Shown one piece after another: positions 10,817 to 25,288 of a DNA stretch of 31,909 nt. The DNA is from a virus. The position numbers were made by a program, and so were the translations under genes. The DNA lies in IMG/VR virus record IMGVR_UViG_3300032288_003058, positions 1 through 31,909 of that record. One strand, written 5' to 3'. Under the pieces are notes generated by a model. That model was given only the letters and a program-made list of their open reading frames with translations. It ran no database searches and was not told the DNA's origin. Position 1 is the first letter of the stretch; each line of letters opens with the position of its first letter.

Positions 10817-11287
10817 ATGGCTCGGAACCTCCGCGTCACGGGCAGCACGGTACGCGTCGATGGTCTGGCGCAACTCATTCGAGACTTCGACGCCGTCTCG
10901 AAAGAGTTGAGCCGCGACCTTCGACGCGAGCTGCTGGACGTGGCGCGGATGGTGTCCGACCACGCACGCACGAACGTCGTCTTCAAGGAAAGTCTCGGCG
11001 CCGGTCAGGGCGGCCAGGACCGCCGGCCGAACACGGGCCGCCTGCAGCGCGGCATTCGGCCGAAGATGCGCGGCGCCACCGCCATCGTCGAGAGCCGCAC
11101 AAAGAGCCGCGGCGGCTACCCGTACCCCGGCATTTACGAGTTCGGCGTCAGCGGACGCGCTCGAGCCCGCCGAGCCTTCCTCGAGCCCGCGCTCGACCAG
11201 AAGAGCGACGACGTCGTCCGCAGCATCGAGGACATGTTCGACCGCCTCACCAGTGAACACGGCTTAGGAAGAGGAGGACTTCTCTAG
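10817..11287 (+). CDS. HK97 gp10-like head-tail/tail completion protein
   Basis: A 156 aa protein with a long N-terminal helix (LAQLIRDFDAVSKELSRDLRRELLDVARMVSDHART), the TGRLQRGIRP segment, and the C-terminal GYPYPGIYEFG...RRAFLEPAL motif that marks HK97-gp10-like proteins. Its place after, not before, the tail tube gene is less usual. It overlaps the following gene by one nucleotide (TAGTG). Confidence 0.75.
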   Translation: MARNLRVTGSTVRVDGLAQLIRDFDAVSKELSRDLRRELLDVARMVSDHARTNVVFKESLGAGQGGQDRRPNTGRLQRGIRPKMRGATAIVESRTKSRGGYPYPGIYEFGVSGRARARRAFLEPALDQKSDDVVRSIEDMFDRLTSEHGLGRGGLL

Positions 11288-22456: not shown

Positions 22457-23248
22457 ATGGTCGTCGACCTCACACGGGTCCTTTCGGAGGGTGCGGCGGG
22501 CGAGCTCCCGTCGCACATCTCCGCGAGCCAGATCAGCCTCTTCGCGCGCTGCCCCGAGGCGTACCGCCAGGAGCGCATCCTCGGCACCAGCCGCGAGCCC
22601 GTCTCCGCGCTGACCGTCGGCTCGGGCGTCCACAAGGGCATCGAGACGTACTTCCGCAGCCTGACCGAGCGGATGACGCAGAGCGAGCGCGAGCAGCGCG
22701 CGATCCTCGCCGCCGGCGATCACGTCGACGACACCGACCCGACCGCCCAGGACGAGGCCGAGGCCGCGATGGACCTCGTCCAACTCTACGTCCGAGAGGC
22801 GCCGAAGATCCAACCCGTCGCCCTCGAGGAGCGCTTCGAGGTCGACGTGCCCGGCTCGACCGTGACGCTCGTCGGCTTCATCGACTGCCTGACGAGCGAC
22901 CGCATCATCGACTTCAAGACGAGCAACAAGGCCGTCGCGAGCCCGTCGGGCGCGTGGAAGCTGCAAGCCTGGCTCTACCAGGCCGCCCACGGCCTCGACA
23001 CGGATTTTCACGTGCTGGTGAAGACTCGCGAGCCGAAGCTTCTGCACGGCGTCGACCTGCGCGTCCCATACGACAAGACGCAGACCCGCCACGCCCTCGA
23101 GTTCGCCGCTCAGACTAGGCGGCGCATTGAGCACCTCTACGAGACGGTCGGGCCCGACCAGCCGTGGCCGGCCGAAGGCGTCCTGCACCCGTGGGCGTGC
23201 GGGTCCTGCTCGGCGCGCTTCTCGTGCGCGATGGGTGGCGCGGCGTGA
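22457..23248 (+). CDS. Cas4/RecB-like PD-(D/E)XK nuclease with Fe-S cysteines
   Basis: A 263 aa exonuclease-type protein. The motif order is right for the family: SQISLFARCPEAYR (C32), GSGVHKGIE with the His of motif I, GFIDCLTSDRIIDFKTSNK giving D143, D152 and K154 of the catalytic core, and QAWLYQAA for the QxxxY motif. C248, C251 and C257 near the end pair with C32 as a probable 4Fe-4S cluster. It likely processes DNA ends in phage recombination together with the SSB-like protein upstream. No cas genes or CRISPR repeats are present. The start is ATG 22457. Confidence 0.87.
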   Translation: MVVDLTRVLSEGAAGELPSHISASQISLFARCPEAYRQERILGTSREPVSALTVGSGVHKGIETYFRSLTERMTQSEREQRAILAAGDHVDDTDPTAQDEAEAAMDLVQLYVREAPKIQPVALEERFEVDVPGSTVTLVGFIDCLTSDRIIDFKTSNKAVASPSGAWKLQAWLYQAAHGLDTDFHVLVKTREPKLLHGVDLRVPYDKTQTRHALEFAAQTRRRIEHLYETVGPDQPWPAEGVLHPWACGSCSARFSCAMGGAA

Positions 23249-23538
23249 GTGCGCTGCTGACCGTTGAGGAGGCGGCCGCCGAGCTGCGCGTCCACCCGGC
23301 GACCGTGCGCCGCATGATTCGCCGCGGTGAGATTCCCGCCGTGAAGGTCGGGCGCCTGTGGCGCGTCGACGCGGACGTTACAAAGCCTGTGCGGGTGGAG
23401 CAGCCTACGCGCGTCGTGGAAAAGCACTCGGCGGCGTACTACGCGCAGCTCGCACGGCCTCTTCCATCGGCACCCGCGTCGCAAGCTCCGACTCTTGGTA
23501 CTCCGTCGCATAGTGCTCGAGCAAGGTGGACGGGCTAG
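23245..23538 (+). CDS. xis: Excisionase-like HTH protein
   Basis: A 97 aa protein. Residues 3-50 are a MerR/Xis-type winged helix: LLTVEEAAAELRVHPATVRR, MIRRGEIPAVKVGRLWRVD. The C-terminal half lies opposite the integrase 3' end (134 nt overlap, convergent) and is probably unconstrained. The GTG start overlaps the nuclease stop by GTGA, so it is the last gene of the lytic operon. Position next to the integrase supports a directionality role. A generic small regulator is the alternative. Confidence 0.72.
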   Translation: MSALLTVEEAAAELRVHPATVRRMIRRGEIPAVKVGRLWRVDADVTKPVRVEQPTRVVEKHSAAYYAQLARPLPSAPASQAPTLGTPSHSARARWTG

Positions 23539-24514
23539 CGTGACCCATCTCGGCCTGGACCCACGGAATCGACCGGCCCTCGTGCAGCGCGAGGCTCGCG
23601 AAGGTGCGCCGCAAGGTGTACGGCGTGAGGCGCTTGTCGGGCACGACCGCGCGCCAGACGCGCTGGCCCCAGATATTCCAGTTCAGCGGGCCGCCCTTGT
23701 CGCCCGCCACGACGAACGCGTCATCGGCTCCGCGGCCGTACGCGTCAAGGTCGGCGTGGAGGGTGGGGAGGATGCGCACCGTGCGGGGCCGCTTCGACTT
23801 TGTCGGGCCGACCTCGCCGCCTTGGATCGTCTGGTCGACGAGGATCACGTCGGGCCGAATGTGCGCCCACGTCAACCCGCAGACCTCGCCCGGTCGCAGG
23901 CCGGCGTAGGCGATGAGGCTGACGATGATCTTGTCGCGCGGCGTCGGCATCGCGTAGCGGATCGCCTCGACCTCAAGCGGCGTCAAGGCGATGACGGCGC
24001 GCTTGTGGTGCGGCAGCCGCTCGATGCCGTTACACGGATTGAGGTCGATGAGGCCGTCTTTGACGGCGGCGCCGAGCGCGGCACTCAGCACGGTCTTCGC
24101 GACGTTCGCCCGATGATTGGACGCGCCCTTCTCGAGGATCAGCGCGCGGTAGCGGCGCAGGAGCCGCGGCGTGATCTGCTCGAGCGGCACGTCGCCGAGG
24201 TAGGGCGTGATCCACTTGGCCGTCACGTTGGCGCGGTCCTTGAGCGTGTTCGGCGCCCATGTCGGGCCGTAGTTGCGGAACCACTCGACGAGCCATTCGC
24301 CGATCAGCATCCCCTCGGGCGCGGCCACGTCGACGAGGAGCGGATTGGTCGCCTGGATCGGCGCGCGCGCGGCCGGCTCGGTCGTCTTGACGCTCGCGTC
24401 GAACGCTACGGCTTCTTTGTGCGTGGCGAAGCTGCGGCTGCGCTGGTGGCCGGTGTGGTCGCGGAAGGCGACGCGCCAGGGGCTCTTCTTCGAGGTGGTC
24501 TTGTGGACGCTCAC
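23405..24514 (-). CDS. int: Tyrosine integrase
   Basis: A 369 aa site-specific recombinase. There is an N-terminal arm-binding domain (about residues 1-45, WRVAFRDHTGHQRSRSFATHKEA), a SAM-like core-binding domain (70-155), and a catalytic domain. Catalytic residues are R207 (AGLRPGE), a Lys near 239-241, Y299-x-x-R302 (YTLRRTF, with Tyr where His is most common), H325 (MGHAS) and nucleophile Y335 (EHYA). It starts at GTG 24514 with GGAGG 7 nt upstream. attP lies directly behind its start. It converges on and overlaps the excisionase. Confidence 0.95.
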   Translation of the reverse strand: MSVHKTTSKKSPWRVAFRDHTGHQRSRSFATHKEAVAFDASVKTTEPAARAPIQATNPLLVDVAAPEGMLIGEWLVEWFRNYGPTWAPNTLKDRANVTAKWITPYLGDVPLEQITPRLLRRYRALILEKGASNHRANVAKTVLSAALGAAVKDGLIDLNPCNGIERLPHHKRAVIALTPLEVEAIRYAMPTPRDKIIVSLIAYAGLRPGEVCGLTWAHIRPDVILVDQTIQGGEVGPTKSKRPRTVRILPTLHADLDAYGRGADDAFVVAGDKGGPLNWNIWGQRVWRAVVPDKRLTPYTLRRTFASLALHEGRSIPWVQAEMGHASPSTLLEHYATEYQESELATRVPMEEAVRAARSTPPSAFPRRA

Positions 24515-24535
24515 GGCGATACCTCCACGAACCGG

Positions 24536-24557
24536 ATGTTGAATGAAATGTTGAATG
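24536..24557 (+). repeat. Arm-type direct repeats, left pair
   Basis: ATGTTGAATG occurs twice, at 24536-24545 and 24548-24557, with a 12-nt period, between the integrase start and the core. A matching pair lies on the other side of the core, as expected for integrase arm-binding sites. Occupancy here could also repress int. Confidence 0.65.
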
Positions 24558-24622
24558 GTCGCGCGCAGCGACCCGAATCGGACACTACACGACCTCTCCC
24601 CAGCATGGAAGGAGACGAGCGA

Positions 24623-25288
24623 ATGCGCGTAGGATTGATGCGGTCTGACGGGCTCTCCGAGGACTGCTACACTACCCCTCGACGCGGGCGTAGCTCAGTT
24701 GGTAGAGCGACAGCTTCCCAACGTCCCGGAGGCCGCTCGCAGCGTGACGTAGGATCACCTCCGGTACCGTCACAATCCCGCACCGTTGAGCGGAAACCGC
24801 GCCAGCGTCTGATTTCTGCCGCATCGGCCGTTTCGGGCCGATGTTGCACGAGATGTTGTACGTTTCTGGTCCTCGCGCTCGCCGCGTGCGTCCTCGCCGC
24901 AGCTCCCGCCGAAGCGTCGACGAAGCGACTCCCGCCCCTCTGGCAGCAGTTCGCGAAGACGTGTAAAGCGGAGCAGCCGGCGACCCTGCCGGGCTACACC
25001 GGCAACAGGTGGAAGGGCGTCGCCTGGGAGCAGACGACGAACTACACCTACAAGGGCGGCTGCGGCTTCACGCAGCTCAACTGGGACCAGCACAAGCGGC
25101 CCGGCCAGCCGCGCTACATGAGCGACGCCAGCGCCCTAGAGCAGCTCTGGGCCTGCTACCGGATCTACCGCTTCTATCTCAACCAGTCGGGCTCGCATCG
25201 GTACGCCGCGACCGTCTGGGACGCCAACCGGAACATCCTCGGCTGGTACGGCTTCACCGACGCTGAGTGGAAGCGAGCCCACAGGTGA
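24623..25288 (+). CDS. Secreted protein with Rpf/lysozyme-like domain; start uncertain
   Basis: The C-terminal ~135 residues are a secreted domain: a signal-peptide core FLVLALAACVLAAAPAEAS, then LPPLWQQFAKTCKAEQP, YKGGCGFTQLNWDQHKRPG and DASALEQLWACYRIYR. This pattern loosely resembles resuscitation-promoting-factor or transglycosylase folds (GG-x-FTQ, then an A-x-EQ helix). The only ATG in frame with a good ribosome site (GGAAGGAG, 8 nt) is 24623, giving 221 aa, but its first ~70 codons read through the tRNA-half of attP. No ATG, GTG or TTG in this frame lies close to the signal peptide; an ATG at 24853 is out of frame. A frameshift, a non-standard start or an integration-dependent start are all possible. 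Confidence 0.62.
   Translation: MRVGLMRSDGLSEDCYTTPRRGRSSVGRATASQRPGGRSQRDVGSPPVPSQSRTVERKPRQRLISAASAVSGRCCTRCCTFLVLALAACVLAAAPAEASTKRLPPLWQQFAKTCKAEQPATLPGYTGNRWKGVAWEQTTNYTYKGGCGFTQLNWDQHKRPGQPRYMSDASALEQLWACYRIYRFYLNQSGSHRYAATVWDANRNILGWYGFTDAEWKRAHR
24645..24673 (+). promoter_or_regulatory. Promoter carried just upstream of the tRNA half
   Basis: CTGACG (24645-24650), a 17-nt spacer and TACACT (24668-24673) with a TGC extension form a good promoter. The start site would be about 24680, 4 nt before the tRNA 5' end at 24684. Confidence 0.65.
24684..24721 (+). other. tRNA-Gly(CCC) 5' half (attP core)
   Basis: Acceptor strand GCGGGCG, TA, D-arm GCTC-AGTTGGTA-GAGC, G, anticodon 5' strand ACAGC and loop TTCCCAA (anticodon CCC, 24717-24719) are all present. 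The next bases, CGTCC, cannot pair with ACAGC, and no T-arm or acceptor 3' strand follows. Identity to a tRNA therefore stops at the anticodon loop, so this is an attachment core, not a functional tRNA gene. Confidence 0.8.
24841..24862 (+). repeat. Arm-type direct repeats, right pair
   Basis: ATGTTGCACG (24841-24850) and ATGTTGTACG (24853-24862) repeat with the same 12-nt period and orientation as the left pair; the shared core is ATGTTGnAnG. They lie about 120 nt right of the core. Confidence 0.62.

Follow-up and report, generated by a model that had tools for sequence, protein, structure and literature searches.

A probable temperate phage attachment site carrying the 5' half of tRNA-Gly(CCC) behind a likely phage promoter

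Here we analyzed a window of 31,909 nucleotides (positions 1 to 31,909 of IMG/VR virus record IMGVR_UViG_3300032288_003058), which is very probably a temperate tailed phage whose attachment site, attP (24535-24858), would rebuild a host tRNA-Gly(CCC) gene behind phage DNA and replace the promoter that integration cuts off. In the usual account, integration into a tRNA gene leaves the host promoter in place. Gene annotation of this 31.9-kb record identified terminase, portal, major head protein, tape measure and repressor genes, together with integrase, excisionase, primase/helicase and HNH genes. IMG/VR also holds a twin viral contig, identical at 11,107/11,107 bases in the stretch compared, which may represent the same population and was left out as an independent case.

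A tyrosine integrase gene (23405..24514, minus strand; PF00589 5e-12, PHROG integrase 1.6e-60) adjoins attP, as expected of a tRNA-targeting phage, and its 3' end is overlapped by a candidate helix-turn-helix excisionase gene (23164..23538, plus strand; PHROG excisionase 2e-9, HTH_17 1e-14). The integrase gene ends at 24514 and the core begins at 24684, which places the att site outside the integrase gene. Arm-type integrase sites are typically paired direct repeats on either side of the core, and a repeat search returned such a plus-strand pair, with GATGTTGAATGAAATGTTG to the left (24535..24553) and GATGTTGCACGAGATGTTG to the right (24840..24858). Across the whole window, the motif ATGTTG-N6-ATGTTG occurs at these two plus-strand sites only, starting at 24536 and 24841, and nowhere on the minus strand. 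We regard the repeats as putative arm-type-like sites. The sister phage L101 shares the divergent layout of integrase gene and 5' half, and its core is flanked on either side by TGTTGACTC. With the integrase adjoining, the repeats flanking the core and the closest integrase relatives located at tRNA-Gly(CCC), the original prediction that the region around 24684-24721 is an attP at half of this tRNA is well supported.

The core (24684..24721, plus strand) corresponds to positions 1-38 of tRNA-Gly(CCC) and is the part common to attP and attB. As predicted, it runs from the acceptor strand to the anticodon loop, stopping at the final base of the loop (TTCCCAA), and the half with which it would pair is absent. 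From 24722 (CGTCCC) the window does not continue into the host 3' half (GCTGTAGGTCG...); the phage sequence standing in its place (24722..24767, plus strand) has no match to that half, and ARAGORN found no complete tRNA gene in the window. The tRNA 3' half of a classical attP is thus missing, and identity covers positions 1-38 only, as in a 5'-half attP, so that the host promoter would be severed. Just 3' of the core, GGATCACCTCC at 24752-24762 equals the 3' end of 16S rRNA; read on the minus strand, the same positions form a perfect Shine-Dalgarno sequence, GGAGGTGATCC, with no obvious start codon.

A host tRNA-Gly(CCC) gene beginning with these 38 nucleotides was expected, and the exact 38-mer (38/38 identity) was found in 16 species-level bacterial genomes, each time within an intact tRNA-Gly(CCC) gene. 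Because it was seen in no other context across these 16 genomes, chance is excluded. Identity to the host begins at tRNA position 1; further upstream, the only shared feature is a -10 element at the host position. Joining the attP 5' half to the host 3' half yields a gene equal to the host tRNA gene. Eleven of the 16 fall within a single family of lake Actinomycetota that comprises 16 genomes, some of them titled Thermoleophilia, and three of the matches are Micavibrio. The phage GC content (66%) and the integrase relatives lead us to favor the actinobacterial family as the host over Micavibrio. Two lake MAGs titled Bifidobacterium breve (L008 and L012) group with the lake Thermoleophilia family, and their NCBI names look wrong. 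A search for lysogens found no close relative of the window integrase in the 13 searched genomes with the 38-mer and no second copy of the 5' half in any genome of the lake family. Neither attL nor attR of the window phage was found in the searched genomes, although few host genomes were available and absence is therefore not implied.

The predicted folding of the attP RNA equals that of shuffled sequences (z 0.25), and the rebuilt tRNA folds better than shuffles (z -3.7). We also considered whether the acceptor strand in attP RNA pairs with a complementary downstream 7-mer, which is perfect in L101 and forms seven pairs, including one G-U, in the window. This was rejected as a general feature (combined p 0.8, 18 sites).

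Relatives of the integrase in the class are about 30-45% identical and are located beside tRNA genes, and L023, L024 and L027, among the closest, lie at tRNA-Gly(CCC). Wherever an orientation could be assigned (23/23 loci), the integrase is on the 3' side of the tRNA and the element carries the 3' half, opposite to the window. Among eight prophages of relatives examined, the distal att copy spans tRNA position 31/32 to the 3' end in six; the L024 match extends beyond this on the 5' side, interrupted by a single mismatch at position 30. The window copy (1-38) and the relatives' copies (31/32 onwards) overlap only in the 7-nt anticodon loop. As both blocks share those seven bases, strand exchange in the anticodon loop is the simplest solution for the integrase family. 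Consequently, the predicted crossover is best placed at TTCCCAA (24715..24721, plus strand), the sole part common to both halves, and the window carries the mirror image of its relatives' half.

In our model, the target of the tyrosine integrase is an Actinomycetota tRNA-Gly(CCC) gene, which it would recombine with attP (24535-24858) through strand exchange within the 7-bp TTCCCAA. At the junction next to the integrase gene, phage promoter, phage 5' half and host 3' half would form a complete tRNA gene, with phage positions 24600-24721 joined to GCTGTAGGTCG... The other junction would leave an orphan 5' half (the 38-mer) behind the host promoter, running into phage DNA that reads CGTCCCGG from 24722 onwards, and 24722..24767 would follow the orphan half. 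Since recombination is conservative, the rebuilt tRNA would lie downstream of phage DNA wherever in the 38 bp the crossover took place. The phage must supply a promoter because integration cuts off that of the host, and we hypothesize that the sequence at 24645-24673 would take over, allowing the lysogen's tRNA supply to continue. Reconstitution from a 5' half is well supported and promoter replacement is likely. The explanation as a whole, which we hold with considerable confidence, is weakened by the failure to find a lysogen, by a weak -35 element, by the opposite half carried by the 23 oriented relatives, by a reading frame that spans the site, and by the lack of a -10-like element in some other 5'-half elements and ahead of the rebuilt tRNA in genome G386.

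We then rechecked the promoter-like sequence (24645..24673, plus strand), and the elements lie where the original prediction had placed them: CTGACG at 24645-24650, then, after a 17-nt spacer that includes the extended -10 TG at 24665-24666, TACACT at 24668-24673. In host tRNA-Gly genes, TANNNT begins 14-16 nt ahead of the tRNA in 15/15 cases, and the window's TACACT begins 16 nt ahead of its half. The corresponding distance is 17 nt in L101, 14-15 nt in the L105/L097/L087 lineage and 17 nt in the integrated element of genome G092. In the window phage, 0.4-0.7% of positions would have TANNNT at the host distance by chance, so that the element is enriched over chance; per contig, the chance is 0.2-1.2% for a 5-position range picked after the data were seen. 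The -35 element matches only 4/6, and scans for consensus promoters (9/12 threshold) and terminators found nothing, the whole promoter falling below the threshold. The promoter call therefore rests on position and comparison rather than on consensus strength, and by these we infer that a promoter function is likely. No -10-like element at the tRNA distance is present in L089, L092, L095, L098, L099 or L108, which form a separate group of viral contigs whose 5' halves follow the pattern GCGGTGGTAGCTCAG...TTCCCAA and lie beside more distant integrases. In L088 and L096 the -10-like element overlaps the integrase stop codon, which makes it weak evidence.

The same region is crossed by a reading frame of 221 aa (24623-25288), with an SD-like GGAAGGAG at 24607-24614 and an ATG at 24623, which spans the promoter-like sequence and the tRNA half and continues into secreted-protein-like sequence. 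Because this frame spans the site, transcription may begin further upstream. L101 has CAGGAG and an ATG at L101:5707, and reads through its own half in the same frame. The window's frame has no Pfam, PHROG or phage homologue, and only the twin contig matches it. After integration, this gene would lie in the reading direction of the host tRNA promoter at the orphan junction.

The architecture that the original prediction expected of the crossover product, a tRNA completed behind element DNA, was observed for related elements in two bacterial genomes. In G092, one contig has an intact tRNA-Gly(CCC) downstream of an integrase C-terminus, and a second has an orphan 5' half preceded by a genus-typical TACAAT promoter. 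The two host flanks, once joined, correspond to neighboring sequences in the congener G052 (83% identity); in G195, the part of the joined sequence that spans promoter, tRNA and right flank is contiguous. The G092 element is degenerate, with the integrase C-terminus alone left at that site. G386 is the cleaner case: an intact tRNA-Val(GAC) lies downstream of a codirectional integrase whose reading frame is open over 400 aa, and an orphan 5' half of 43 nt lies elsewhere. The 1.5 kb upstream of this orphan matches the empty locus of G381 (76%), and the sequence downstream of the intact tRNA matches the same empty locus (70%). In both genomes the intact tRNA lies behind element DNA and the orphan 5' half retains the host promoter; in G386, no clear -10 precedes the rebuilt tRNA. 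The viral contig L087 is a further junction, with integrase, intact tRNA-Gly(CCC) and then bacterial-type genes. These three elements differ from the window phage and show that the architecture exists. A third integrated candidate, G294 (L141), was rejected as suggestive only, as the promoter regions of its two copies are alike and its integrase is broken. In L142 (G327:C93:2000-6000, at 1735-2012), an orphan tRNA-Gly(CCC) 5' half is followed after only 204 bp by an intact copy, and the two have separate TATCCT promoters; this may be the scar of a lost 5'-half element.

Scanning viral contigs for tRNA-Gly(CCC) 5' halves returned 27 stretches. One is the window's twin, 9 are complete tRNAs and the other 17 are orphan halves. 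In 13 of the 17 an integrase of the same family is present in the stretch, mostly directly adjoining the half. Orphan 3' halves of tRNA-Gly(CCC) are likewise frequent. A scan artefact was rejected as the source of the orphan 5' halves, since the control, tRNA-Thr(CGT), gave 0/23. A generic D-arm pattern had 13/81 matches outside ARAGORN genes, and none of these 13 was a clean half that stops at the anticodon loop. Four viral contigs (L257, L274, L280 and L286) contain tRNA-like fragments with acceptor strand and D arm (GTAGCTCAGTTGGTAGAGCG...), which ARAGORN did not call; some lie directly behind tRNA genes, and they are not anticodon-loop halves.

On the integrase tree, the 5'/3' label needs about 5 changes, at least 4 of them forced by supported branches, and the window pairs with L101 (100/93) within a clade otherwise made up of 3'-half users (95/91). 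A single origin of all 5'-half users was rejected (AU p 1e-75 with 13 rows, 1.5e-4 with an 8-row subset), with long branches limiting both the tree and the AU test. These analyses show that the predicted reversed, 5'-half version arose several times. A broader reading, possible but rather doubtful in our view, is that, among phages and elements of Actinomycetota, anticodon-loop integrases switch repeatedly between the two halves, and that each switch to the 5' half would make the host tRNA promoter, mostly that of tRNA-Gly(CCC), mobile and exchangeable, so that phage DNA sets the tRNA supply of the lysogen.

How far does this evidence separate our model from its alternatives? Phages often carry tRNA genes, and the fragment could be a decayed tRNA gene of the phage, or could have been captured by chance, with integration taking place elsewhere; the empty lysogen search would fit this. 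We consider it very unlikely, as the perfect identity stops exactly at the anticodon loop, the fragment sits between the integrase gene and the flanking repeats, and the integrase relatives use the same tRNA. Moreover, besides the twin, 17/26 tRNA-Gly(CCC) stretches are orphan 5' halves, mostly near integrases of the same family, compared with 0/23 for tRNA-Thr(CGT). A more serious alternative, though still an unlikely one, accepts attP and the rebuilding and proposes that the tRNA is made by read-through from a phage promoter further upstream, for example one serving the frame at 24623, and that RNase P then trims the transcript; the hexamers at 24645-24673 would be incidental. The SD-ATG frames crossing both halves (24623 in the window, 5707 in L101), the rebuilt tRNA of G386, behind a codirectional integrase and lacking a clear -10, and the empty consensus scan all agree with it. 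Against read-through, the -10 stands at the host distance of 16 nt, which is rare by chance in the phage, and L101 has TANNNT 17 nt upstream.

The original prediction also held that the lysogen's tRNA is transcribed from a phage promoter, giving the phage control of a host tRNA. Its first part is consistent with a tRNA placed behind phage DNA and a -10 at the host position; its second goes further than needed, because plain replacement of the severed promoter suffices as an explanation. Regulatory control of tRNA-Gly(CCC), tuning GGG decoding to the needs of the phage, strikes us as quite improbable. The architecture would permit it, and 5'-half elements have targeted tRNA-Gly(CCC) repeatedly, but we found no operator or regulator site and the -10 is host-like, as plain replacement predicts. 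In addition, many genomes of the class match both CCC- and TCC-type glycine tRNA patterns, and GGG decoding may not need tRNA-Gly(CCC). Under plain replacement, the model we prefer, a host-like promoter would restore tRNA expression without regulating it.

The predicted attP, 17 viral contigs and two chromosomal integrations indicate that the reversed mode recurs around one integrase family. Members of this family also integrate in the normal mode, and both modes pivot on the anticodon loop. This raises two testable questions: by what route an attP switches from one tRNA half to the other, and whether host tRNA levels can be set by a prophage. It is also a warning for prophage finders that assume a tRNA 3' half at the junction.

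Among known systems, classical anticodon-loop integration by mycobacteriophages likewise relies on a tyrosine integrase and rebuilds the tRNA at one junction. Its crossover falls in or near the anticodon loop, as is predicted for the window, whose putative arm-type-like repeats would correspond to its arm-type sites (PMC10865867); however, their common cores are 3' halves that keep the host promoter, whereas the window has a 5' half and severs it. Fionnbharth and Gaia, which show tRNA-dependent lysogeny, are likewise tyrosine integrase phages of Actinobacteria at a tRNA gene that must provide for the cut tRNA, but their core is about 10 bp, the tRNA is not rebuilt and a whole phage tRNA compensates (PMC10865867); in the window the core measures 38 bp and a tRNA gene is absent. 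Elements at dusA also replace the 5' end of their target gene, with putative -10/-35 elements after integration (PMC4482086), although the target is protein-coding and the integrase family different. In ICEKp1, the host tRNA promoter is usable by the integrated element (PMC13023037), which bears on the orphan junction of the window. In the statement of Williams (2002) that PMC8371274 cites, recombinant tRNA genes in bacteria remain, with very few exceptions, under their original promoter. A close parallel is the archaeal pTN3-like integrases (Thermococcus nautili pTN3, tRNA-Leu), whose att is likewise a tRNA 5' half and whose rebuilt tRNA is expressed from the side of the element, as is predicted for the window; this mode is described as seldom encountered in bacteria (PMC8371274). 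Their att lies within a split integrase gene, and the tRNA is said to use the integrase promoter. In contrast, the window integrase is intact and divergent, with a separate promoter-like sequence between it and the tRNA half, and its att outside the integrase gene sets it apart from that family. A literature search found no direct bacterial-phage precedent for a 5'-half attP. Taken together, these comparisons suggest that the window represents a variant of a rare known mode, one that is more widespread than the surveyed literature suggests.
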